Positions 13,705 through 56,742 of a DNA stretch of 64,000 nt are shown in pieces. The notes beneath the pieces are model-generated. The model had not been told where the DNA came from, made no database searches, and saw only the letters and a program-made list of their open reading frames with translations. Positions within the stretch are counted from its first letter, which is position 1, and each line of letters starts with the position of its first letter. This DNA is from Pseudidiomarina halophila (GTDB lineage: Bacteria; Pseudomonadota; Gammaproteobacteria; Enterobacterales; Alteromonadaceae). Position numbers and translations under genes: made by a program. The stretch spans positions 496,001 to 560,000 of the forward strand of contig NZ_PIPW01000002.1 in assembly GCF_003987215.1 (NCBI RefSeq), in the 5' to 3' direction.

Positions 13705-13727
13705 CCCGTAGTAGAACTACGGGCTAC
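13705..13727 (-). repeat. GTAG-type REP hairpin, copy 1
   Basis: Read on the minus strand this is GTAG followed by CCCGTAGTTCTACTACGGG, an 8-bp perfect stem with a TCT loop. It lies between convergent lpxC and dciA, starts on the base after the lpxC stop, and supplies the last codons and the TAG stop of dciA. Five more copies are in the window (31059, 31419, 34102, 56630, 56720). Confidence 0.9.
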
Positions 13728-25697: not shown

Positions 25698-26261
25698 ATG
25701 ATCAAAAACGGAACCTATCCACAAGCAGAACAAAAGTTATCGCCGCACCATGACGATCGCACGGATCCCGATGGTATCAGCGTGTTAGTGGTGCATTGCA
25801 TTAGCTTGCCCGCCGGCGAATTCGGTCAGCCTTACATTGACCAGCTGTTTATGGGCACCATAGATACCAACGAACACCCGACGTTTGGGATTTTAAAGGG
25901 CCTGCGCGTTTCAGCGCACATGGTCATCCATCGTGATGGGCGAATGGTGCAGTATGTCCCCTTCCATAAACGTGCCTGGCATGCAGGAGTCTCCCATTAC
26001 TGCGGGCGCAAAGGCTGTAATGAGTTTTCGATCGGAATAGAGCTTGAGGGAACGGACACCGCCCCCTACACTAAAGAGCAGTACCAGCAACTGGCAAAAG
26101 TAGCCGCGGCACTGGTGCAGGAGTATCCCGCCCTGACGCCGCAGCGCATCGTTGGTCATCAGCATATTGCGCCCGTACGCAAGACCGATCCAGGTCCGGC
26201 ATTCGATTGGCAGCACTTTAAACAGCTACTTGATCAGCAGCTGTATAACGAGGACATTTAA
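25698..26261 (+). CDS. ampD: AmpD, cytoplasmic 1,6-anhydro-muramoyl-L-alanine amidase
   Basis: Removes the peptide from anhydro-muropeptides during peptidoglycan recycling, and so controls AmpR-type induction of AmpC in species that have it. 187 residues, amidase_2 fold. Zinc ligands are the His of VVHC near residue 33, the His of GHQHIAP near 153 and the Asp of KTDPGPAFDW; the catalytic Glu is in IGIELEG. No signal peptide, as expected. The following ampE starts on the next base. No ampC or ampR is present in the window. Confidence 0.95.
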   Translation: MIKNGTYPQAEQKLSPHHDDRTDPDGISVLVVHCISLPAGEFGQPYIDQLFMGTIDTNEHPTFGILKGLRVSAHMVIHRDGRMVQYVPFHKRAWHAGVSHYCGRKGCNEFSIGIELEGTDTAPYTKEQYQQLAKVAAALVQEYPALTPQRIVGHQHIAPVRKTDPGPAFDWQHFKQLLDQQLYNEDI

Positions 26262-27098
26262 ATGCAATTACTGGCGATTTTATTGGCGTATTCATTAGAA
26301 CGTTCGGTAACCCTAAGTCGCAATTTGCACTGGCGCCGCATCGTGTTGCGCTGGCAACAATGGCAGGCGAAAAAGACCCAGGTAGGTAGCGACAGTCAGG
26401 AAAAAATCGCTGAGTGGCGTCAGCATTTGCTCGGCGAAGTGGTCTGGGCGGTATTGCCGGCGCTGATCATCACCTTTGTTGTGGTGTTGGTTGATTCGTT
26501 CCTGCTTTCCTTTGTGATTGGCGTGCTGGCGCTGCTTGCCGCCATGCAATGCGGACAAGCGCGGGCTGCGTACAAAGCTTATCTTGAAGCCGCAAATAGC
26601 GGTGACACCGGCGCAACCGCCGAGCAGTTACGTCAGATACGTCGGGCGTCGGGCCATCAGGAAGCGGCGCCGGTTCATGATCTGCTGCTGTGGATTCACT
26701 TGCGTTATTACTTCGCTCCGCTGCTTTACTATGTGTTGTTCGGCATCTTCGGGGTGCTGGTGTACGCCACGCTGCGCGATATGAAACATCCACGCAATAA
26801 GGCCTGGGATCAGCTACAACTGATTGTGCACTGGCTACCTACACGTATCATGAGCTTCGGCTTTTTGATGGTCGGTAATTTCGGTAAAGCTTTGCCGGTG
26901 TGGCTGAGCTCAGTGGGCAACACGCCGCAAAACAATTTTGCCGCCTTAAGTAAAGTCGCAAACGCGGCGGAACAGCTGGAACCGAGCCATGAAGACGACG
27001 TTACTTCTACTGCTCTGACCACTGTTGCGTTAATGAAGCGTAACTTGCTGTTTTTCATTGTCTTACTCGCAGTAATGACCATCGCTGGCTGGTTCTGA
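26262..27098 (+). CDS. ampE: AmpE, inner-membrane protein of the ampDE operon
   Basis: 278 residues, predicted four-pass inner-membrane protein of unclear biochemical role. Hydrophobic segments lie near residues 66-93, 145-168, 190-207 and 258-276. The N-terminus MQLLAILLAYSLERSVTLS and a basic cytoplasmic loop around residues 100-140 fit the family. It begins directly after the ampD stop, so expression is linked. Confidence 0.9.
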   Translation: MQLLAILLAYSLERSVTLSRNLHWRRIVLRWQQWQAKKTQVGSDSQEKIAEWRQHLLGEVVWAVLPALIITFVVVLVDSFLLSFVIGVLALLAAMQCGQARAAYKAYLEAANSGDTGATAEQLRQIRRASGHQEAAPVHDLLLWIHLRYYFAPLLYYVLFGIFGVLVYATLRDMKHPRNKAWDQLQLIVHWLPTRIMSFGFLMVGNFGKALPVWLSSVGNTPQNNFAALSKVANAAEQLEPSHEDDVTSTALTTVALMKRNLLFFIVLLAVMTIAGWF

Positions 27099-27107
27099 TG
27101 AATTAAT

Positions 27108-27127
27108 GTTTGGGTTCACGCCCAAAC
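27108..27127 (+). terminator. Hairpin after ampE
   Basis: A perfect 7-bp stem, GTTTGGG and CCCAAAC, with a 6-nt loop lies 10 bp after the ampE stop. There is no T-run, so termination is uncertain. It overlaps the -35 of the candidate pdhR promoter. Confidence 0.35.
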
Positions 27128-27138
27128 TAGTCTAAAAT
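27110..27138 (+). promoter_or_regulatory. Candidate pdhR promoter
   Basis: TTGGGT at 27110-27115 and TAAAAT at 27133-27138 are 17 bp apart. The PdhR-type operator begins 4 bp downstream of the -10 box, covering the expected transcription start, as fits autorepression. Confidence 0.6.
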
Positions 27139-27141
27139 ACG

Positions 27142-27156
27142 TTTGGTAAGACCAAT
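27142..27156 (+). promoter_or_regulatory. PdhR operator
   Basis: TTTGGTAAGACCAAT contains the PdhR half-sites TTGGT and ACCAA with a 3-bp spacer, the arrangement known from E. coli. Its position just downstream of a -10 box suggests PdhR represses its own operon (pdhR-aceE-aceF) when pyruvate is low. Confidence 0.85.
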
Positions 27157-27171
27157 GCACCAACAAACAGC

Positions 27172-27300
27172 AAGAGCGTTATTCGTTGTTCGAACGCTTC
27201 GCTCTTCGTACGCTACGCTATTCGGTAACTTCAAGCTCGAGCAGCGTAGCGTACGAACAGAGAGGCGAAGCCGAACGTACGAGCAACGGACAACGCTCTT
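27172..27300. repeat. ~129-bp palindromic element upstream of pdhR
   Basis: Two inverted arms of about 50 nt. The outer ends are AAGAGCGTT and AACGCTCTT; the inner arms contain TTCGTACGCTACGCT and its complement. The whole unit could form one long hairpin in the pdhR leader. A diverged relative of the same size is at 49291-49417. No coding frame. Confidence 0.8.
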
Positions 27301-27314
27301 AAAGGTTTTTATGA

Positions 27315-28061
27315 ATGGCTTTTGATCGCATACAACCGACGAAGCTTTCTGATGTCATCATGCAGCGGATTGAAGTGATGATTGTCGACGGCACCTTAGA
27401 AGCTGGCGCGCGCTTGCCGTCGGAGCGGGATCTTGCGCATCAATTTTCGGTGTCGCGGCCAAGTTTGCGCGAAGCCATTCAAAAGTTAGAAGCGCGCGGT
27501 TTACTTGAGCGACGTCAAGGCGGCGGCACATATGTTTGCGATAATATGCAGAAGCGCGTGGCGGAACCCCTCCTGGAACTGCTGACACAGCACCCTGAAT
27601 CGCAGTTCGACCTGCTAGAGTTTCGCCACGCGCTCGAAGGCATTTCGTCGTATTACGCTGCTATGCGTGGTACGCCAACCGACATCGCCCGCATTGAAGA
27701 GAGCTTTGCGGCGATTAAGCAGGACGATAATGCGGAGCTCACCGCACAAGCGGAAGCACTCAACGAATTCAACCTGCGCATCTGCGAAGCATCGCATAAT
27801 GTGATCCTCCTGCACCTGGTGCGGAGTATGCAGCCACTATTACAAAAAAATATTCAGCAAAACCTGCAGGACCTGTCGCATAAGGCAGGCGTCATGCAAC
27901 AACTTCACGAACACCGGCAGCACATTGTCACTGCCATTTCAGCTGGCGAGCCAGAACAAGCGCGCGAAGCTTGTCATCAGCTGCTAGCCTATATTGAACA
28001 CGCGTTGCTGACCTCGAATCGTGAACAGTCACGGATTCAGCGGTCATTGCGCCGAACGTAA
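27315..28061 (+). CDS. pdhR: PdhR, GntR-family pyruvate-responsive repressor
   Basis: 248 residues. The N-terminal winged helix (residues 8-75) shows the GntR signature LPSERDLAHQFSVSRPSLRE; the C-terminal FCD domain (about 95-225) binds the effector, pyruvate in E. coli. The ATG at 27315 has AAGG 8-11 nt upstream. Its operator (27142-27156) lies before the gene, and aceE starts 18 bp after its stop, the same order as in E. coli. The leader is about 170 bp and contains a long palindromic repeat. Confidence 0.92.
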   Translation: MAFDRIQPTKLSDVIMQRIEVMIVDGTLEAGARLPSERDLAHQFSVSRPSLREAIQKLEARGLLERRQGGGTYVCDNMQKRVAEPLLELLTQHPESQFDLLEFRHALEGISSYYAAMRGTPTDIARIEESFAAIKQDDNAELTAQAEALNEFNLRICEASHNVILLHLVRSMQPLLQKNIQQNLQDLSHKAGVMQQLHEHRQHIVTAISAGEPEQAREACHQLLAYIEHALLTSNREQSRIQRSLRRT

Positions 28062-28079
28062 ACTGGGTAAGGATAAAGT

Positions 28080-30749
28080 ATGACTGACCATTTAAAAGAC
28101 GACATTGATCCACAGGAAACACGCGAGTGGCTTGACTCCCTCGAAGTCGTGTTAGAAGAAGATGGCCCGGAGCGCGGCCATTTCCTGATGGAATCATTGA
28201 TTGAGAAGGCGCGTCGCAGCGGTGCTTACCTGCCTTATGCGGCGACTACCGCTTACTTGAATACGATTCCGGCCAGTCAGGAGCCGACCATGCCAGGCGA
28301 CCAGAGTATGGAAGCCCGGATCCGCTCAGCGATTCGCTGGAATGCGCTGGCAATGGTACTGCGCGCATCGAAGAAAGAGCTCGAGCTCGGCGGTCACATT
28401 TCCAGCTTCGCGTCATCAGCGATGCTTTATGATGTTGGCTTCAACCACTTCTTCCGCGCCCCGACCGATAAAGACGGCGGCGACTTCCTGTTTATTCAGG
28501 GCCACGCATCGCCAGGTATCTACGGTCGCGCATTCTTGGAAGGCCGCATCAGTGAAGAGCAGCTCAACAATTTCCGTCAGGAAGTTGACGGCGAAGGCGT
28601 GAGTTCTTACCCGCACCCGAAATTGATGCCTGATTTCTGGCAGTTCCCGACGGTATCTATGGGCTTAGGTCCGATTCAGGCCATTTATCAGGCCCGCTAC
28701 CTGAAGTACCTGACTGACCGTGGCATTAAAGATTGCTCAAATCAGCGCGTGTACTGTTTCTTAGGCGATGGCGAAGTCGATGAGCCAGAAAGCCTGGGTG
28801 CCATTGGTCTTGCCACCCGTGAAGGTCTGGATAACCTGACCTTTATCGTTAACTGTAACTTGCAGCGGCTGGACGGCCCGGTCCGTGGTAACGGCAAAAT
28901 CATTCAGGAACTTGAAGGCACCTTCCGCGGCGCTGGCTGGGAAGTAATTAAAGTGATCTGGGGCCGCTACTGGGATCCATTGCTGTATCGCGATACCGAA
29001 GGCAAGCTTGCGCAAATCATGCAGGACAGCGTCGACGGTGAGTATCAGAACTACAAAGCCAAAGGCGGCGCTTACACCCGTGAGCACTTCTTCGGCAAAA
29101 CTGAAGAAACTAAGGAAATGGTCGCCAACCTGTCTGATGAAGACATCTGGCGTCTGAACCGCGGTGGTCACGATCCAGTGAAAGTCTACGCGGCTTACCA
29201 TAAAGCGGTGAACACTAAAGGTCGGCCACAGGTGATCCTGGCGAAAACCGTCAAAGGTTACGGCATGGGCTCGGCTGGCGAAGGTAAAAACATCGCTCAC
29301 CAGGTTAAGAAAATGGACATGGACGCGATCAAACACTTCCGTGACCGTTTCAATATTCCGATTAAAGACAGCGAGTTAGAAGACATCCCATTGTACAAAT
29401 TCCCGGACGACAGCCCGGAAATGAAATACATGCGCGAGCGTCGTGAGTCGCTGGGTGGCTACATGCCAGTACGTCGTCCGAACACCGACGTAGAACTGGA
29501 AATGCCAGCCCTGAAAGCATTTGAGTCAGTACTGAAAGGCTCAGGTGACCGTGAGATCTCAACCACCATGGCCTTTGTGCGGGTGCTTAACTCACTGTTG
29601 AAAGACAAGAAAATTGGTAAACGCATTGTGCCGATTATTCCGGACGAAGCGCGTACCTTTGGTATGGAAGGCTTATTCCGTCAAGTTGGTATTTACTCCA
29701 GCCAGGGCCAGAAATATGAGCCGCAAGATGCGGATCAGGTCGCCTATTATCGCGAAGATAAAGAAGGCCAAGTACTGCAGGAAGGTATTAACGAGCTTGG
29801 CGCCATGGCCTCATGGGTGGCGGCAGCGACCAGCTATTCAACCAATAACGAACCGATGATTCCGTTCTACATCTATTACTCGATGTTCGGGTTCCAGCGC
29901 GTTGGTGATTTGGTCTGGGCTGCCGGCGATAGCCAGGCACGTGGTTTCCTGATTGGCGGTACCGCCGGTCGCACCACGCTCAATGGCGAAGGTTTGCAGC
30001 ATCAGGATGGCAGCAGCCACTTGTTGTTCAACACCGTACCAAACTGTGTGACTTACGACCCAACTTTCGGTTACGAAGTTGCTGTTATCGTACAAGACGG
30101 CTTACGTCGTATGTATGGCGAGCAGGAGAACGTGTTCTATTACCTGACCGTCATGAACGAGAACTACCAGCAACCAGAAATGCCTGAGGGTGTCGAAGAA
30201 GGCATCATCAAGGGTATCTATGAACTGGAAGAGCACAAAGCGAAAGGCTCGAAAGGTCATGTGCAGTTGCTGGGCTCAGGCACAATTCTACAGCAGGCTC
30301 GTAAAGCCGCGCTTATCTTGCTGGAGCAGTTTAACGTATCGTCGAAAGTCTACAGCGCGACCTCGTTCAATGAACTGGCCCGCGATGGTATGGACGTCGA
30401 TCGTCATAACATGCTGAATCCGGGCAAAAAAGCCGAAGAAGCTTATGTGACCAAAGTACTGAGCAAGGCGAAGGGCCCGACCATTGCCGCAACGGATTAT
30501 CAGAAACTTTACGCTGACCAGATCCGCGCCTGGGTGCCAACCCCTTACCGCGTGTTAGGTACCGATGGTTTCGGTCGTTCAGACAGCCGCGAAAACTTGC
30601 GCCGTCACTTTGAAGTGAGTGCCGAGTACATTGTGGTAGCAGCCTTGGCAGAACTTGCCAAAGCAGGGGATATTGATGCCAAGGTGGTGCAAAAAGCCAT
30701 TAAGGATTTCGATATCGATACCAACAAAATCAACCCACTGTACGCATAA
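28080..30749 (+). CDS. aceE: AceE, pyruvate dehydrogenase E1
   Basis: Homodimeric thiamine-diphosphate enzyme that decarboxylates pyruvate and acetylates the lipoyl domains of AceF. 889 residues (E. coli 887). The thiamine pyrophosphate motif GDGEVDEPES lies near residue 229 and continues to NCNLQRLDGPVRGN; the HASPGIYGRAFLEGR segment near 141 carries the active-site His; the C-terminal third has GTDGFGRSD near 824. aceF follows after 21 bp. Confidence 0.97.
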   Translation: MTDHLKDDIDPQETREWLDSLEVVLEEDGPERGHFLMESLIEKARRSGAYLPYAATTAYLNTIPASQEPTMPGDQSMEARIRSAIRWNALAMVLRASKKELELGGHISSFASSAMLYDVGFNHFFRAPTDKDGGDFLFIQGHASPGIYGRAFLEGRISEEQLNNFRQEVDGEGVSSYPHPKLMPDFWQFPTVSMGLGPIQAIYQARYLKYLTDRGIKDCSNQRVYCFLGDGEVDEPESLGAIGLATREGLDNLTFIVNCNLQRLDGPVRGNGKIIQELEGTFRGAGWEVIKVIWGRYWDPLLYRDTEGKLAQIMQDSVDGEYQNYKAKGGAYTREHFFGKTEETKEMVANLSDEDIWRLNRGGHDPVKVYAAYHKAVNTKGRPQVILAKTVKGYGMGSAGEGKNIAHQVKKMDMDAIKHFRDRFNIPIKDSELEDIPLYKFPDDSPEMKYMRERRESLGGYMPVRRPNTDVELEMPALKAFESVLKGSGDREISTTMAFVRVLNSLLKDKKIGKRIVPIIPDEARTFGMEGLFRQVGIYSSQGQKYEPQDADQVAYYREDKEGQVLQEGINELGAMASWVAAATSYSTNNEPMIPFYIYYSMFGFQRVGDLVWAAGDSQARGFLIGGTAGRTTLNGEGLQHQDGSSHLLFNTVPNCVTYDPTFGYEVAVIVQDGLRRMYGEQENVFYYLTVMNENYQQPEMPEGVEEGIIKGIYELEEHKAKGSKGHVQLLGSGTILQQARKAALILLEQFNVSSKVYSATSFNELARDGMDVDRHNMLNPGKKAEEAYVTKVLSKAKGPTIAATDYQKLYADQIRAWVPTPYRVLGTDGFGRSDSRENLRRHFEVSAEYIVVAALAELAKAGDIDAKVVQKAIKDFDIDTNKINPLYA

Positions 30750-30770
30750 GCGACGGGAGCGGAGACAAAC

Positions 30771-32588
30771 ATGGCAGATTCAAAAGAAGTGCTCGTCCCC
30801 GATGTGGGCGGCGAAGAAGTCGAAGTAATTGAAATTATCGTCAGTAAAGGCGACAGCGTTGACGCTGAAGATGGCTTGATCACCGTTGAAAGCGACAAGG
30901 CATCAATGGACATTCCTGCGCCTTTCGCTGGTACGGTGAGCGAAATCAAAGTCAGCGTCGGCGATAAGATCAGCGAAGGCGACTTGATCGCGATGATCGA
31001 AGCTGCGGGTGACTCCGATGACGATTCCGACGACACCAACGGTGATTCCGACGATGATGTAGCCCGCAGTTCTACTGCGGGGAAATCCTCCGACGACACC
31101 AATGGCGATTCCGACGATGACGAGTCCGACGACGATGACGACGATAAAGAAGGGTCAGCCCCTAAAGGGTCTGACCCGGACGGCGACACCGAAGTCATCG
31201 ACGTCAAAGTCCCCGACATCGGCGATGACGGCGAAGTCGACGTCATTGAAGTATTGGTCAGCGTTGGCGATACCATCGAAAAAGAAGACGGCTTAATCAC
31301 CCTCGAAACCGACAAAGCAACAATGGATGTACCCAGCCCGGAAGCAGGTACAGTGAAATCCGTTGAAGTCAGCACCGGCGACAAAGTGAAAGAAGGCTCG
31401 CTGGTAATCACCCTAGAAGTAGCCCGCAGTTCTACTGCGGGGGATGCTTCAGGCGACGAAAAATCATCGTCCAAAGATTCGAAATCATCGTCCAAAGATT
31501 CGAAATCTTCGTCGGCTGACGCCGATGCATCTTCTGACGAAGATGCAGAAGGGTCAGACCGCTCCGGGTCGGACCCAAGCGGCCGGATAACGGCAAGTGG
31601 TGAGCGCAAAGCGCCGCCAGTACCTGATCACCCGTTGGACAAAAAAGGTAAAGCTGAAGGCTTAGCCTATGCTTCACCGGCAGTGCGTCGTCTGGCCCGC
31701 GAGTTCGGTGTCGATCTGAACCAGGTAAATGGTTCTGGCCGCAAAGACCGCATCCTCAAAGAGGACGTGCAAGAGTACGTGAAGTATGAACTGTCACGTC
31801 CGAAAGCGACCTCCTCTGGCAGCACCTCCCAAGGCGCTGGTGGTTTGCAGGTTATTGCGCCGCCGAAAGTCGACTTCAGTAAGTTTGGTGAAGTAGAAAA
31901 AGTACCGATGTCTCGGATTCAGAAAATTTCCGGTCCGAATCTGCATCGCAACTGGGTGACCATCCCGCACGTTACGCAATTTGATGAAGCGGATATCACC
32001 GAGCTGGAAAACTTCCGTAAGCAGGAAAACAAACTGCAGGAGAAGAAGAAAGACGGCGTGAAGATCACCCCATTGGTGTTCATCATGAAAGCAGTGGCCA
32101 AAGCGCTGCAGGAGTATCCGCAATTTAACTCGTCGCTGCATGAAGATGGCGAGCACCTGATCATGAAAAAATACATCAATATCGGGATTGCGGTGGATAC
32201 CCCTGGAGGCCTGGTGGTACCGGTTATTCGCGACGTCGACAAGAAAGGCATTTACGAGCTTTCTGAAGAACTCATTGATGTCAGTACGCGGGCCCGTGAC
32301 GGCAAGCTGAAAGCGCAGGACATGCAGGGCGGTTGTTTCTCAATTTCCAGCCTGGGCGGCATTGGCGGTACGGCATTTACGCCAATCGTTAATGCACCGG
32401 ATGTCGCTATCCTCGGGGTTTCGAAAAGTGAAATGAAACCTAAATGGAACGGCAATGAATTTGAGCCGCGCTTAATGTTGCCAACCAGCCTGTCTTACGA
32501 CCATCGTGTCATTGACGGTGCGGTTGCGGCGCGCTTTAGTGTGTATCTGTGCAACGTGTTGTCAGATATCCGTAAGATGATTCTATAA
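30771..32588 (+). CDS. aceF: AceF, dihydrolipoamide acetyltransferase (E2) with acidic, repeat-invaded linkers
   Basis: Core of the pyruvate dehydrogenase complex; transfers acetyl groups to CoA. 605 residues. Two lipoyl domains are seen: the first has the lipoyl Lys at residue 43 (ESDKA), the second at residue 182 (ETDKA). An E1/E3-binding domain follows near residues 300-335 ([14 protein letters not shown]), then the catalytic domain with [10 protein letters not shown] near 575. E. coli has three lipoyl domains and Ala/Pro linkers; here the linkers are Asp/Ser-rich. Two in-frame GTAG REP elements each encode VARSSTAG (residues 97-104 and 217-224), and two GGGTC palindromes encode GSAPKGSDP and GSDRSGSDP. 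The frame stays open, so the protein is probably functional. Confidence 0.95.
31026..31120 (+). repeat. 32-bp direct repeats flanking a REP inside aceF
   Basis: 31026-31057 and 31089-31120 are 32-bp direct repeats differing at two positions, both coding for an acidic run containing DDTNGDSDD. They enclose the REP at 31059-31081. This could be a duplication made during REP insertion or a later unequal exchange in the acidic linker. Confidence 0.8.
31059..31081 (+). repeat. GTAG-type REP hairpin, copy 2, in frame in aceF
   Basis: GTAG followed by CCCGCAGTTCTACTGCGGG (8-bp stem, TCT loop). Relative to the intergenic copies, a T-A pair in the stem is replaced by C-G on both arms. It begins exactly at codon 97 of aceF and codes for VARSSTA plus a Gly. 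Confidence 0.9.
31152..31177 (+). repeat. GGGTC-type palindrome in aceF linker, copy 1
   Basis: GGGTCAG (31152-31158) pairs with CTGACCC (31171-31177), and inner CCC with GGG, with one bulged T. It codes for part of the linker (GSAPKGSDP). It is similar in layout to the GGGGCAGCCCC elements at 52134 and 53679. Confidence 0.75.
31419..31441 (+). repeat. GTAG-type REP hairpin, copy 3, in frame in aceF
   Basis: Identical to copy 2 over GTAG plus the 19-nt hairpin and in the same reading frame (starts at codon 217). It lies at the exit of the second lipoyl domain (ITLE then VARSSTAG). Confidence 0.9.
31461..31502 (+). repeat. 21-bp tandem duplication in aceF linker
   Basis: Two identical 21-bp units code for KSSSKDS twice in a row, followed by a partial third (KSSSADA). 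It is probably a slippage-type expansion of the flexible linker before the E1/E3-binding domain. Confidence 0.85.
31551..31576 (+). repeat. GGGTC-type palindrome in aceF linker, copy 2
   Basis: GGGTCAGACC (31551-31560) pairs with GGTCGGACCC (31567-31576) with one mismatch and a 6-nt loop. It codes for GSDRSGSDP in the linker. Related to the copy at 31152. Confidence 0.75.
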
Positions 32589-32613
32589 ATTAAACAAATG
32601 CCGGCGGGGCTGC

Positions 32614-32619
32614 TATAAT
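32614..32619 (+). promoter_or_regulatory. Candidate lpdA promoter (-10 box)
   Basis: A perfect TATAAT preceded by TGC (extended -10) lies 58 bp before lpdA in the 89-bp aceF-lpdA gap. It sits in the loop of a GCGGGGC/GCCCCGC inverted repeat (about 32604-32629). A separate lpdA promoter is known in E. coli, where LpdA also serves 2-oxoglutarate dehydrogenase and the glycine cleavage system. I do not see a strong -35. Confidence 0.6.
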
Positions 32620-32677
32620 GCGCCCCGCGCGATAATTAACCGAATTCAACGAAATTCTACGAAAGTAAGAGGTCGTC

Positions 32678-34105
32678 ATGAGCAAAGAAATTAATGCCCA
32701 AGTGGTCGTACTCGGTGCGGGCCCTGGTGGTTACTCAGCAGCCTTCCGCGCTGCCGATTTAGGTTTGGAAACAGTACTTGTTGAGCGTTACAGCACTCTT
32801 GGTGGCGTCTGTCTGAACGTCGGTTGTATCCCATCAAAAGCCTTATTGCACCTTGCTAAGCACATTGAAGATGCCAAGCACATGGATGCCGAAGGCGTTG
32901 AATTTGGTGAGCCAAAAATCGACCTCGACAAAATCCGTAAGCACAAAGAAAAAGTCGTGGGTCAGTTGACCGGCGGTCTTGGCCAGATGTCGAAAATGCG
33001 TAAAGTGAAAGTCGTTACTGGTAAGGGCGAGTTCGCCAGCGACAAGCAGCTGAGTGTAAAAGATGACGACGGCAATGAAACCGTGGTTAATTTTGAGCAT
33101 GCCATTATTGCCACCGGCTCACAATCGATCAAGCTACCTTTCGTACCTCATGACGACGAGCGTATCTGGGATTCGACAGCGGCACTTGAGCTGCGCTTCA
33201 TCCCAGATCGTATGCTGGTACTTGGTGGCGGTATTATAGGCCTGGAAATGGGCTGTGTTTACAGCGCACTAGGTTCGAAAATTGACGTAGTCGAAATGAC
33301 CGATCAGCTGATTCCGCCAGCAGATAAAGACATCATTAAGCCTTTCACTAAGTCAATGAAGAACAAGTTCGACAACGTCATGCTGAACACCAAAGCAGCG
33401 AAGGTCGAAGCCAAAAAAGACGGCATCCACGTTACCTTTGAAGGTGATAACGCACCTGACAAGCCGGTTAAATATGACGCAGTTCTGGTCGCTGTTGGCC
33501 GCGCGCCAAATGGTAAGAAGATTGCTGCTGATAAAGCTGGCGTGAAAGTAACAGACCGCGGTTTCATCGAAGTTGACAAGCAAATGCGTACCAACGTGAA
33601 GAATATTTTCGCGATTGGCGATTTGGTAGGCCAACCGATGCTGGCGCACAAAGCTGTGCACGAAGGTCACGTTGCCGCGGAAGTTATTTCTGGCAAGAAA
33701 CACTACTTCGATCCGAAAGTGATTCCATCGATTGCTTACACGGATCCAGAAGTCGCGTGGGCCGGTCTCACCGAGAAAGAAGCCAAAGAGCAAGGTATTG
33801 AGTACGATACAGCGGTATTCCCGTGGTCAGCTTCTGGCCGTGCCATCGCACAAGGCGCAACGGACGGCATGACCAAGTTGTTGTTCGATAAGAACAACCG
33901 CATCATCGGTGGCGCTGTGGTCGGTTCTAACGGTGGTGAACTGATGGGCGAAATCTGTCTCGCTATCGAAATGGGTTGTGACGCAGAAGACATCGCACTC
34001 ACCATCCATGCTCACCCAACCCTGCACGAATCTGTAGGCCTGGCAGCTGAAGTGTTTGAAGGCTCAATCACTGACCTGCCAAACAAAAAAGCCAAGAAAA
34101 AGTAG
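32678..34105 (+). CDS. lpdA: LpdA, dihydrolipoyl dehydrogenase (E3)
   Basis: FAD-dependent oxidoreductase that reoxidises dihydrolipoamide in the 2-oxoacid dehydrogenase complexes. 475 residues (E. coli 474). The N-terminal FAD motif is VVLGAGPGGYSAAFRA; the redox-active pair lies in GGVCLNVGCIPSK near residue 45; the NAD domain has LGGGIIGLEMG near 186; the C-terminal interface has HAHPTLHESV near 447. The start has AAGAGG upstream. The TAG stop is formed by the GTAG head of a REP element. Confidence 0.97.
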   Translation: MSKEINAQVVVLGAGPGGYSAAFRAADLGLETVLVERYSTLGGVCLNVGCIPSKALLHLAKHIEDAKHMDAEGVEFGEPKIDLDKIRKHKEKVVGQLTGGLGQMSKMRKVKVVTGKGEFASDKQLSVKDDDGNETVVNFEHAIIATGSQSIKLPFVPHDDERIWDSTAALELRFIPDRMLVLGGGIIGLEMGCVYSALGSKIDVVEMTDQLIPPADKDIIKPFTKSMKNKFDNVMLNTKAAKVEAKKDGIHVTFEGDNAPDKPVKYDAVLVAVGRAPNGKKIAADKAGVKVTDRGFIEVDKQMRTNVKNIFAIGDLVGQPMLAHKAVHEGHVAAEVISGKKHYFDPKVIPSIAYTDPEVAWAGLTEKEAKEQGIEYDTAVFPWSASGRAIAQGATDGMTKLLFDKNNRIIGGAVVGSNGGELMGEICLAIEMGCDAEDIALTIHAHPTLHESVGLAAEVFEGSITDLPNKKAKKK

Positions 34106-34124
34106 CCCGTAATTCTATTACGGG
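34102..34124 (+). repeat. GTAG-type REP hairpin, copy 4
   Basis: GTAG followed by CCCGTAATTCTATTACGGG. Both arms carry a matching change (GTAAT/ATTAC instead of GTAGT/ACTAC), so the 8-bp stem is preserved. The TAG of the GTAG head is the lpdA stop codon. Confidence 0.9.
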
Positions 34125-34156
34125 TCCAATCCTCGTACACCACGATGATTAAACAA

Positions 34157-34191
34157 ACACCGCGATGGCTCAGCCGCCGCGGTGTTTTTTT
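34157..34191 (+). terminator. Rho-independent terminator of the pdh operon
   Basis: ACACCGCG (34157-34164) pairs with CGCGGTGT (34178-34185), with an inner GGC/GCC pairing in the loop, followed by seven T. It lies 51 bp after lpdA and just past the REP. Confidence 0.9.
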
Positions 34192-34275
34192 GTATGTATT
34201 CCAACCCTCACTTGTACGCCAGAGTAAAAAAATATACAATCTAAATCCAACATAAAAAATACAAGGAGTTTGAAG

Positions 34276-35424
34276 GTGAACTATTCAAGGAGTCAGTTAT
34301 TTAACACAGGATGTTTGCTACTTAGTTTGATTACCTTCCCATCGTTTGCGCTACAGGTGGACGCCGTACAGCCCTCGTCTGATCATTTAATTGTCTGTGA
34401 TTCAGGTATTGATGCTACCCGTTGCCAAAGTTTTACCGATCAGCAACTGGTTGAAAGTGTGCGCGTCAGGTATGGCGATGCCGAACTGGGGAGTTGTAGT
34501 TTGAACTGCTCAGAACCTTCCCCCGCGATACCATCGTTGCGGGTGCCGATATTGATTCTTGATATAGATAATGAACAAGCCTATCGAAAGGAGGTTATTC
34601 GCGTCGAAATTTCGGGTCAAAGCACTTATTCTGTTTGGGATAAACCTGTCTTAGATTCCGACTTAGCACTGCTTACAAAAACCGTTGATGCAGTGGAGGC
34701 ATTCGATGTTTTATCGATGAAGCTATCCTTTGTTCAGGACACAAGCTCATCAGAATTTAAGAATAGTTGGGGGGAAATGCCCTCGGAACTTGGAATGTCC
34801 TATGGAACGGTCAGTGACGCTGTTCTTAACAGATTAGGAAATTGTCAGACAGCTTATTCCTGGTACGATCAGCGCCTGGCCGATGAAACGCTACCATTTT
34901 GCAGTGCGTTTGTGACTCGACAACTCGATCGTATGTTTGCTGAAGCGCGAGCAAGTCGCAATTGGCTTGATCATCTGGTTGAGGTTGTCAGAGATTGGCA
35001 AATGGCAGTAAATCCATTATTTATTTCCATAAGTGTGCCGCAAGCTGACCATTTGGTTCAACGATTTCAGTTTGCAGATGGCTCACTACTTGTCATTGAA
35101 ATTGAGCCCAGTGATGAAGGGAGCCCTGCAATTGCGGTTAACAAAACGAAGTCGCGAACGAGTACCGGCGAATCTTTTGAGAACTTTTCCGCACGGTTGG
35201 CAGACCTAGGTAGTGGTTCACAACTTAACCTGTCGTCTGGTGAGGCATTTGGTCTATTTGGAACCTTTGATTGTCGACATCAATTGCTAAACGCGGGCGT
35301 ATTTCAAAGGTTTCGTGTCGAGATCCTTGCTGTCGATAGTGAAGGCAAACCCACCCGGGTTAATTTTGTATTGCTCTCACAAGAGTCACTCGTTGAAGAA
35401 CAATTTGTGTGTGAAGCATTTTAA
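34276..35424 (+). CDS. Exported protein of unknown function
   Basis: Not recognised. 382 residues from the GTG at 34276, chosen because AAGGAG lies 7 nt upstream; a TTG at 34270 is too close to that site. The N-terminus has a typical signal peptide (FNTGCLLLSLITFPSFALQ), so the protein is probably periplasmic or secreted. The mature part has seven Cys, including CSLNC near residue 75, which suggests disulphides, and no metal, catalytic or repeat motif I know. Base composition looks more AT-rich than in flanking genes. It stands alone after the pdh terminator and before hicBA, and may have been acquired. Confidence 0.6.
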   Translation: MNYSRSQLFNTGCLLLSLITFPSFALQVDAVQPSSDHLIVCDSGIDATRCQSFTDQQLVESVRVRYGDAELGSCSLNCSEPSPAIPSLRVPILILDIDNEQAYRKEVIRVEISGQSTYSVWDKPVLDSDLALLTKTVDAVEAFDVLSMKLSFVQDTSSSEFKNSWGEMPSELGMSYGTVSDAVLNRLGNCQTAYSWYDQRLADETLPFCSAFVTRQLDRMFAEARASRNWLDHLVEVVRDWQMAVNPLFISISVPQADHLVQRFQFADGSLLVIEIEPSDEGSPAIAVNKTKSRTSTGESFENFSARLADLGSGSQLNLSSGEAFGLFGTFDCRHQLLNAGVFQRFRVEILAVDSEGKPTRVNFVLLSQESLVEEQFVCEAF

Positions 35425-35494
35425 TTTGATTTAACTGACGCGCTGCGGCCGGATTACCTCTAGGTCGCAGCTTCCTCAACATTGCGACCAAACC

Positions 35495-35932
35495 TCACGC
35501 ACCGCGTTGTTTTTTGTTGGTCATCAGCTCATCCGCCGCTTGTGCTAAAAAATCGGATCGATCTTTGTACTCAGAATGGACCTGTACGAATGAATCGACC
35601 CGTGTCAAAAGTGTTTCAGGAAGCGTAATGTTGATGCGCTTTTGCCTTACGCGCAAAGAGTCAACGGGCACCTCTAACGCCAGCCACTCCAGACGCTCCG
35701 GGTTGTCCTCGCGGTAATTCGCTAAATCAATCTCTAAAGCACTCAGCAAATGTCCATCGCGCAACGCTTCTTCGACCATCGTTAAAATAGCTTCTTTGGC
35801 TCTAAAAATGATGTCATCGCGCTTATTAGCGGCAGAAGCACATACCATGCCCAACTTTTCAAAAACTGGCACGACAATACCCCAGGCTTCGTTTTCATTC
35901 TTTGGCGCTTCAATCCCAACTAAAAATAACAT
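35495..35932 (-). CDS. hicB: HicB-type antitoxin
   Basis: Antitoxin of a HicAB module. The ATG at 35932 has AGGAG 8 nt upstream, giving 145 residues; a GTG at 35941 is too close to that site. Residues 1-65 form a degenerate RNase-H-like HicB fold that covers the toxin, and the C-terminal part (KRINITLPETLLTRVDSFV and following) is a ribbon-helix-helix DNA-binding domain, so it should repress its own promoter. Downstream of hicA on the same strand with an 11-bp gap. Confidence 0.85.
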   Translation of the reverse strand: MLFLVGIEAPKNENEAWGIVVPVFEKLGMVCASAANKRDDIIFRAKEAILTMVEEALRDGHLLSALEIDLANYREDNPERLEWLALEVPVDSLRVRQKRINITLPETLLTRVDSFVQVHSEYKDRSDFLAQAADELMTNKKQRGA

Positions 35933-35943
35933 ATCGCTCACTC

Positions 35944-36141
35944 CTAATGAGGATTAACATCAATGCCTGCGGCTCGCAAAATGGCCTTCAAAGTGCCGAT
36001 GGGCAGATTTTTCTTCGGATGAGGTACGGTGAACTTAAGTCCTGTGCTTGGTGAATACCAAACCTGATGGTCTCCCTTACCTTGTCTGACAAACGTGCAT
36101 CGATGACTTTTTAAAAGTCGAATAAGCTCGCGTGACTGCAT
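35944..36141 (-). CDS. hicA: HicA-type mRNA interferase toxin
   Basis: 65 residues, normal for HicA. The dsRBD-like fold has the catalytic His in KGDHQVWY near residue 25, and the C-terminal part IGTLKAILRAAGID is typical. HicA cuts mRNA in a ribosome-independent way when free of HicB. First gene of the pair, with a strong promoter and palindrome just upstream. Confidence 0.87.
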   Translation of the reverse strand: MQSRELIRLLKSHRCTFVRQGKGDHQVWYSPSTGLKFTVPHPKKNLPIGTLKAILRAAGIDVNPH

Positions 36142-55718: not shown

Positions 55719-56633
55719 ATGGCACAAGCGCAAAAAGGCATCTTTGCAGAGCCAAATTTGCATGGCTTAACACTATCATTGAACGTAATGACCGATGATG
55801 TTGAGAGTGTGCGACGTAAGTTAGCCCAAATTCCAGCGTTGCTCAATGAGCTCGATGAACGTTTTTCCGAAGCTTTACTCAGTGGTTACGTTGCCATCGG
55901 CAGCGATTATTGGGACATTCTTTACCCGCAGCAGCGACCTTCTCAGCTGGGTAACTTCCCTGACCTGCGTGATGGTGATCGTCAGGCTCCGCGCGAGCCG
56001 GTTGATCTGTTGCTCACGGTGCGCTCAGATCGTTTCGATGTAAATTATCACAGCGCGCGGGCGTTACTCGAGTGGCTGGGGCATGACGTGGAACTCACCG
56101 AACAATTGCCCACCTTCAGATTTATGGACGGCCGCGATCTGACCGGCTTCATCGATGCGCCGGAAAATCCGCGCGGCATCCGCCGACGCCAACTCGCGCT
56201 GATTCATGCCGATGATGATCCGGTATTCGCTGGCGGCAGTTATTTGTATGTGCAAAAGTTTCGTCACGACCTGCGGCGCTGGGAACAATTGACGCAAGAA
56301 ATGCAGGAATTCGTTATCGGTCGTAAGAAGCTGACCGGCGAGCGCATCAGTGAAGCGGTGCTACAGATGGTGTCTCACACCCAAAAAGCCAAACTTCAGA
56401 ATGAACAAGAGCAGCCGCTGAGCATGTTGCGACAGAACATGCCATGGGGAGATATGCGCGAGCAGGGCTTGCTGGCAATGTATTTTTCGGGGCATTCACG
56501 GGACGTGCTGCAATGGCTGAAACAACGCTACATTGCCGATGAAAATGGCGATTACGACCCTTTGCTGGATTACACAGAAGCGGTTAGTAATGCGGCTTTT
56601 TTTGCCCCCTCCGTCGATTTCCTGACACAGTAG
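55719..56633 (+). CDS. Dyp-type heme peroxidase
   Basis: 304 residues from ATG 55719 (GAGGG upstream); the in-frame extension to 55626 has no ribosome site. The family signature GxxDG reads GFIDA here (G143 to A147), so the second Gly is replaced by Ala while the catalytic Asp146 is kept, followed by PENPRG. SHTQKAKL near residue 218 carries the proximal heme His, and LRQNMPWG near 238 the conserved Arg. No signal peptide, so cytoplasmic. The TAG stop is formed by the GTAG head of a REP. No encapsulin gene adjoins. Confidence 0.9.
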   Translation: MAQAQKGIFAEPNLHGLTLSLNVMTDDVESVRRKLAQIPALLNELDERFSEALLSGYVAIGSDYWDILYPQQRPSQLGNFPDLRDGDRQAPREPVDLLLTVRSDRFDVNYHSARALLEWLGHDVELTEQLPTFRFMDGRDLTGFIDAPENPRGIRRRQLALIHADDDPVFAGGSYLYVQKFRHDLRRWEQLTQEMQEFVIGRKKLTGERISEAVLQMVSHTQKAKLQNEQEQPLSMLRQNMPWGDMREQGLLAMYFSGHSRDVLQWLKQRYIADENGDYDPLLDYTEAVSNAAFFAPSVDFLTQ

Positions 56634-56652
56634 CCCGTAGTTCTACTACGGG
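56630..56652 (+). repeat. GTAG-type REP hairpin, copy 5
   Basis: GTAG plus CCCGTAGTTCTACTACGGG. TAG of the head is the peroxidase stop codon. Together with copy 6 on the opposite strand (56720-56742) it makes a 113-bp pair of inverted REPs with a 67-bp spacer. Confidence 0.92.
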
Positions 56653-56719: not shown

Positions 56720-56742
56720 CCCGTAGTAGAACTACGGGCTAC
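56720..56742 (-). repeat. GTAG-type REP hairpin, copy 6
   Basis: Minus-strand GTAG plus CCCGTAGTTCTACTACGGG, identical to copy 5. On the minus strand it is preceded by three more GTAGGT units (56743-56760), one of which contains the TAG stop of argR. Confidence 0.92.

Follow-up and report, generated by a model that had tools for sequence, protein, structure and literature searches.

In-frame GTAG-class REP sequences in the inter-domain linkers of E2 enzymes and Der of Pseudidiomarina

The window, a 64-kb stretch of the Pseudidiomarina halophila genome, contains aceF, which encodes the E2 component of pyruvate dehydrogenase with two lipoyl domains, an E3-binding domain and an acyltransferase core (Pfam). 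Composition and domain limits suggest that the AceF linkers are disordered. Two linkers carry copies of a GTAG-class REP family, named REP-A here, together with other palindromes and repeats. Genomes of the genus are referred to by label where needed: G000 (the genome of this window), G002 (P. insulisalsae), G005 (P. terrestris), G006 (P. salinarum), G007 (P. homiensis), G011 (P. donghaiensis), G012 (P. atlantica), G018 (Pseudidiomarina sp. CB1), and G019 (P. woesei). The gene and its features are as follows:

30771..32588, + strand: aceF, E2 of pyruvate dehydrogenase, 605 aa (ORF plus Pfam Biotin_lipoyl, E3_binding, and 2-oxoacid_dh)
30999..31202, + strand: linker 1, 68 aa, between the AceF lipoyl domains
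31026..31057, + strand: 32-bp direct repeat, upstream copy, present in G000 only
31059..31081, + strand: REP-A copy 1, linker 1, with GTAG head, 8-bp stem, and 3-nt loop; VARSSTAG, eighth codon ending at 31082
31089..31120, + strand: 32-bp direct repeat, downstream copy, with counterparts in G018 and G016
31152..31177, + strand: GGGTC palindrome, 26 nt, linker 1, not a dispersed REP
31416..31613, + strand: linker 2, 66 aa, ahead of the AceF E3-binding domain
31419..31441, + strand: REP-A copy 2, linker 2, identical to copy 1 and in the same frame
31461..31502, + strand: 21-bp tandem repeat, two exact copies, linker 2
31526..31547, + strand: family B hairpin 1, TGCATCTTC-TGAC-GAAGATGCA, with genus-wide matches in aceF only
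31551..31576, + strand: family B hairpin 2, which is the second GGGTC palindrome, 26 nt

The 23-bp sequence GTAGCCCGCAGTTCTACTGCGGG occurs exactly at 31059-31081 and 31419-31441, beginning both times at codon position 1 of aceF and encoding VARSSTAG, which bears out the description, in an earlier note on this DNA, of two REP hairpins on codon boundaries in one frame. The window holds five copies (≤3 mismatches), compared with none in 100 dinucleotide shuffles. The estimate in that note of about 35 residues added to the linkers is reasonable by arithmetic (two inserts of 8 residues and two of ~9). Rfam gave nothing above the gathering score for the palindromes and two weak matches only, and no tRNA was found in a search of positions 26000-36000.

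REP-A is dispersed within the genus. The search pattern GTAGCCCGNNNTTCTANNNCGGG matched 45 copies in G000 and 0 to 133 copies per genome across 26 genus genomes, 16 of which had a match, whereas the reversed pattern, used as a control, gave 0 matches in each of the 26. The left edge of the element (GTAG) is sharp, with scant upstream conservation, and a weakly conserved right tail of ~12 bp extends beyond the 23-bp core. The head of the G000 copies is GTAG (47/49) or GTCG (2/49). GTAG REPs are described as having GTAG or GTGG 0 to 2 nt ahead of a hairpin with a 7- to 20-bp stem and a 2- to 5-nt loop (PMC6006769), and REP-A has GTAG immediately 5' of an 8-bp stem with a 3-nt loop. Stem variants stay complementary (CAG/CTG, TAG/CTA, TGG/CCA, GCG/CGC, TAC/GTA, and TCG/CGA), and mismatched copies are few.

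Most of the many copies are extragenic (36 of the 48 examined in G000 lie between ORFs, and 93 of the 130 examined in G018 are intergenic). By the same mechanical ORF calls, seven further G000 copies overlap the end of an ORF, whose stop codon they provide, and five are wholly intra-ORF (two in aceF and one each in a bkdB-like E2 gene, yjbH, and der), all on the coding strand and in the same frame. Among the 48 copies, the stop codon of the adjoining ORF comes from the TAG of the GTAG head in five and from an internal TAG in two (three in the window, listed below, and those in L046, L051, L054, and L057). In yjbH, which encodes an exopolysaccharide protein (L042 3756-6062), the in-frame REP-A lies within a Thr/Asn/Gly-rich stretch. 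Copies in the window outside aceF are as follows:

13705..13727, - strand: REP-A copy with a TAG/CTA stem, its internal TAG terminating a 154-aa ORF
34102..34124, + strand: REP-A copy, its TAG being the lpd stop codon (34103-34105)
56630..56652, + strand: REP-A copy, its TAG serving as stop for a 323-aa ORF
56720..56742, - strand: REP-A copy, intergenic, inverted relative to the 56630 copy and forming a pair with it

In G018, where a slightly different pattern gives 155 copies in total versus the 130 examined, 17 of the latter lie partly across an ORF and 20 lie within a mechanical ORF. Eight of these 20 lie inside recognised genes (three in aceF, two each in bkdB and sucB, and one in der), all on the coding strand and in frame 0, and the remaining 12 belong to REP-array ORFs, N-terminal extensions, and one C terminus. 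Copies rejected as internal insertions were six on the opposite strand or in an odd frame (four in the first ORF codons, where the start is likely misassigned, and two in REP-array ORFs) and 6 of the 14 same-strand copies (five in REP-array ORFs and one forming the C terminus of a 261-aa ORF). In one G018 region (L215 1756-3155), REP arrays amid ORFs with a GFTLVEV motif, presumably pilin-like, produce long spurious open frames full of VARSSTAG.

The Pfam Y1_Tnp (PF01797) profile has matches in 19 of 26 genus genomes, including a RAYT-like transposase gene in G000 (L245 1325-1951, minus strand; E value of 3.5e-6, above the cut-off). Its ORF contains DHMHC and YNPVKHG, which we take to be the HxH and Tyr motifs of the Y1_Tnp domain. 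Three REP-A copies in one orientation lie directly upstream of the gene, with one opposite copy past a neighbouring gene; the RAYT-like gene of G018 has REP-A on either side, among the matches listed. Inverted REPs on both sides, the flanking pattern of a classical RAYT, were not distinct at the G000 gene. Copies also cluster near these genes: 18 of 45 in G000 are on the contig of the gene, no more than 110 kb from it, and, among the matches listed, 56 of 71 plus-strand copies on C1 of G018 lie within 160 kb. Clustering of REPs about RAYT has been reported for three marine gammaproteobacteria (Nunvar 2010, PMC2817692). The crowded zones (G000:C3 500-656 kb and C1 1-100 kb; G018:C1 1.13-1.43 Mb) include aceF and der. 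The association between RAYT and REP-A is imperfect, not one to one: G016 has 51 REP-A copies, yet its sole Y1_Tnp match belongs to another size class, and G020 has a Y1_Tnp match of similar size and no REP-A. The sequence evidence indicates that REP-A is very probably mobilised as single-stranded DNA by RAYT (a Y1 HUH transposase), and the RAYT-like gene here is presumably the mover.

Intragenic copies were surveyed in 92 ORFs (25 aceF, 23 bkdB, 19 sucB, and 25 der), which contain 40 REP-A (20 in aceF, 11 in bkdB-like E2 genes, 6 in der, and 3 in sucB). Copies occur in aceF of 10 genomes, bkdB of 5, sucB of 2, and der of 6, with 10 Pseudidiomarina genomes involved altogether. Every one of the 40 reads on the coding strand in frame 0, within an open host ORF, and lies at an inter-domain linker position, as judged from the Pfam domain limits of G000 and homology (sucB by homology alone). 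The site in der is the linker between the two GTPase domains. The finding of REPs in three E2 genes (aceF, bkdB, and sucB), each time in linkers, strengthens the suggestion in the earlier note that transposition may contribute to the construction of E2 linkers. P. salinarum (G006) has 36 REP-A copies, none of them in aceF, bkdB, sucB, or der. In the part of G018:C1 below 1,127 kb, away from RAYT, 4 of 25 REP-A among the matches listed are in bkdB or sucB, compared with 0.07 expected by gene length (Poisson 1e-6), a figure that is descriptive because the two genes were picked after the matches had been seen. In linker 2 of G012 bkdB (L062; DVARDVARDVARTSSAG), the REP head is tripled, as if by slippage. 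The Der linker of several congeners (L231, L234-L240, L242, and L243) is long and made of repeated D-x-D/E-G-N-I-I-D-like units with no kinship to REPs.

In the frame used, REP-A encodes V-A/P-R-x-S-T/S-x-G. Across five stem variants, stops close 3 of 6 frames for TAG and TAC stems and 2 of 6 for CAG, TGG, and GCG stems, and stops alone therefore cannot account for the single frame. The copies in the four genes represent ~15 distinct positions by a by-eye count in which orthologous copies were merged by eye, and the chance of one frame each time at these 15 positions, with 3 or 4 of 6 frames stop-free, is ~1e-7. The restriction to one strand and one frame exceeds the prediction of stop avoidance. 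The other open frames yield peptides that are more hydrophobic, aromatic, or basic, and a filter on the peptide is therefore a plausible cause of the single frame. A mechanistic strand bias may be an alternative source of the one-strand pattern.

We consider it likely that RAYT-mobilised GTAG-class REPs enter coding DNA and that those in disordered linkers are retained when their reading frame gives V-A-R-x-S-T-x-G. REP-A, moved as single-stranded DNA by RAYT, would repeatedly enter protein-coding DNA and persist where the translated insert forms a small polar spacer in a disordered linker, read in one frame, with stop codons and selection on the peptide removing the other frames. The acceptor places would be the linkers of three E2 enzymes (aceF, bkdB-like, and sucB) and the inter-GTPase-domain linker of Der. 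Inserted copies would then undergo local duplication, decay, and pairing-preserving stem changes that resemble the host pool, through ectopic conversion or re-insertion. The linker inserts are most likely tolerated, with a near-neutral effect on the enzyme. This reading builds on the following observations: the inserts belong to a dispersed family, share one strand and frame, and sit in linkers; they are present in some species and absent from others; and a RAYT gene has REPs beside it.

Comparison with relatives agrees with the claim, made in the earlier note, of an in-frame REP invasion of the aceF linkers. Eighty named aceF loci, from within Pseudidiomarina and from outside it, were compared: REP-A is present in the matched stretch of 8 (seven named Pseudidiomarina and one gammaproteobacterial MAG) and absent in 72, for a few of which the match spanned part of the gene only. 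In a tree of the AceF core and Der, G000 is sister to G005 with a bootstrap value of 100; support for several of the deeper nodes is weak (24 to 84). This sister species has no REP-A in aceF, bkdB, sucB, or der, and its aceF linkers contain three family B copies in place of REP-A. The linker 1 REP probably goes back to a single old insertion shared by G000, G018, and G016, because the downstream sequence is similar; its stem is CAG in G000 and TGG in G018 and G016.

Stem variants within genes are like those of the host REP pool. All 22 REPs of the G011 pool are GCG, as are its aceF copies; TAC, the commonest stem in G012 (5/15), is also found in its aceF copy and one bkdB copy; and TGG, the commonest stem in G018 (72/133 copies examined), is also that of the aceF copies of G018, G007, and G016. 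This similarity is consistent with conversion from the pool or re-insertion. The sucB site of an intact REP in G018 and G007 is occupied by a decayed REP in G000, and a decayed copy was also seen in G007. The 32-bp direct repeats (31026-31057 and 31089-31120) do surround the first REP and differ at two positions, as described earlier, but they are no mark of insertion, since G018 and G016 have a single counterpart, downstream of the REP. The upstream copy is confined to G000 and thus points to later duplication, and the repeats were rejected as a target-site duplication. No exact empty/filled pair at one unaltered site was found in the linkers compared, which are too altered to provide one, and insertion is read from presence and absence.

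The GGGTC palindromes lie in both linkers as previously described (31152-31177 and 31551-31576), but their interpretation as dispersed REPs was rejected, as there are no dispersed copies and matches are nearly all in E2 linkers. Family B (31526-31576) is restricted to aceF in the 26 genomes (9/9 pattern matches and 11/11 BLAST matches, E up to 1e-3). Family C has 13 of 14 matches (E up to 1e-3) in aceF or the third bkdB linker of the donghaiensis group, and the 14th (G025:C6:90673) covers a single arm over 29 bp. Seven matches to the pattern GTCAGACC..GGNTCTGAC were found in 26 genomes: six in E2 linkers and one, in a G006 ORF, by chance. Apart from that chance match and the single-arm match in G025, every match to families B and C in the 26 genomes is in aceF or bkdB, and dispersed intergenic copies were not found. 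Eight family B copies have both-side changes at 4 pairs (10 cells) with pairing kept, and the covariation score is 0.160 versus 0.054 (0/500 shuffles), which is not a probability because the sequences are related.

Families B and C, unlike REP-A, could have grown in place, with template switching in Ser/Asp-rich repeats of the linkers followed by duplication and gene conversion between linkers, an explanation to which we give somewhat less than an even chance. The absence of family B outside aceF fits such growth, as do the near reverse complementarity of Ser-run and Asp-run codons, the TGAC loop common to several stems, and the tandem duplications present in linkers. However, the third bkdB linker and aceF have a common core (CAGACCCAGC...GCTGGATCTG) with different outer stems and loop, and same-core palindromes in two genes are the expected look of a small mobile family. 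Families B and C may be a rare mobile family surviving in E2 linkers only, or palindromes grown in place. A broader proposal, that E2 linkers are a standing acceptor site, with REP-A and the GGGTC/TGAC-loop class moving among the aceF, bkdB, and sucB linkers and kept for tuning translation or linker length, appears rather doubtful. If it were true, mobile palindromes, and not slow drift, would drive the evolution of linkers in 2-oxo acid dehydrogenases.

Linker folding was compared with that of 100 synonymous codon shuffles per linker (62 ORFs entered, 7 without linkers, several genomes twice). Palindrome-bearing linkers had z values of -0.8 to -6.4, Ala/Pro-rich linkers had values near 0, and linker 2 of G003, which has no palindrome, had a value of +0.7. 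It is unlikely that the palindromes are retained for work in the mRNA, either slowing ribosomes between domains for co-translational folding or protecting or processing the transcript, with E2 linkers selected to hold hairpins of any source. Such a function would accord with the near restriction of the second palindrome class (B and C) to the E2 linkers of aceF and bkdB, with the two-sided changes that preserve pairing in eight family B copies, and with the several linkers that fold far better than synonymous shuffles (z to -6.4). The same is true of some linkers without REP-A, namely, those of P. gelatinasegens (L026; z of -3.0 and -3.5) and aceF linker 1 of Idiomarina zobellii, I. ramblicola, and I. 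piscisalsi (L149, L153, and L174; z of -3.2 to -3.6). Nevertheless, aceF linkers of palindrome-free species are mostly near a z of 0, which indicates that hairpins are no general need. Furthermore, copy number and place vary even among close species, decayed REPs are tolerated, and some REP-bearing linkers have little excess structure (G018 linker 1, z of -0.8).

It is very improbable that the palindromes are an ancient part of E2 linkers or a chance product of composition. Weak palindromes arise easily from Ser/Asp-rich coding DNA, and some REP-A-free linkers have excess structure, but REP-A matches a dispersed family exactly, with 0 in shuffles, and is missing from 72 of 80 named aceF loci. 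The Ala/Pro-rich linkers of G009, G015, G021, and G004 (A+P of 0.47 to 0.56) also lack palindromic inserts, and differences between species rule out an ancient or chance origin of REP-A. Assembly or sequencing error is scarcely credible, since, although repeats often cause misassembly, ten genus genomes have inserts of this kind, with other stem variants, and the frame is open in 25/25 aceF ORFs examined.

If RAYT-mobilised REPs do enter coding DNA and survive in disordered linkers, as these comparisons suggest, mobile DNA would have added sequence to the linkers of three related core enzymes and one GTPase in marine bacteria. In-frame REPs were formerly regarded as scattered oddities; here, many congeners have the same kind of event in the linkers of three paralogous core enzymes, and the varied stem variants, duplications, and decay allow the process to be traced stepwise. 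The uniform strand and frame provide a natural read-out of a linker-acceptable peptide. Whether mobile palindromes are raw material for disordered protein linkers, and whether the hairpins are relevant in mRNA, becomes a testable question.

The inter-domain linkers of E. coli E2 are Ala/Pro-rich. Like the Ala/Pro-rich E2 linkers of G009, G015, G021, and G004, REP-bearing linkers sit between the lipoyl, E3-binding, and core domains, but they are acidic/Ser-rich and total 112 to 136 aa over two linkers (five species, L009 to L013), compared with 81 to 100 aa. Intragenic GTAG and CGTC REPs have been reported, mainly in repair and replication genes, with flexible linkers or loops suggested (Di Nocera 2013, PMC3733652), and the main text of that paper makes no mention of dihydrolipoyl/pyruvate enzymes, EngA/GTPase, or Idiomarina. 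Literature searches, covering openly available main texts, yielded no paper describing REPs in E2 linkers. REP-A resembles the GTAG REP/RAYT systems described in PMC2817692 and PMC3733652 in its GTAG head, short GC-rich hairpin, and dispersed copies, which are mostly intergenic and near gene 3' ends, as well as in the RAYT-like gene with adjoining copies and the clustering round RAYT. Unlike the GTAG REPs in repair and replication genes described in the main text of Di Nocera 2013 (PMC3733652), most wholly intragenic REP-A in two genomes are in paralogous E2 enzymes. Rickettsia RPEs (Ogata 2000, as summarised in PMC2229807 and PMC10969869) are palindromic, function-compatible, and in frame in conserved genes, and REP-A likewise appears from its sequence to be a palindromic repeat inserted and read in frame within conserved proteins. 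Assignment to the RPE family was rejected, as REP-A belongs to another lineage and has a 23-bp core, encoding 8 residues, with a ~12-bp weak tail, whereas RPEs are 105 to 146 bp (~150 bp in the other review) and occur in many unrelated genes (PMC2229807, PMC10969869). Also unlike RPEs as described there, REP-A recurs in linkers and has a RAYT-like gene beside its copies. In-frame REPs and RPEs were already known; what is new is the concentration of REPs in paralogous E2 linkers, together with a further palindrome class nearly confined there.
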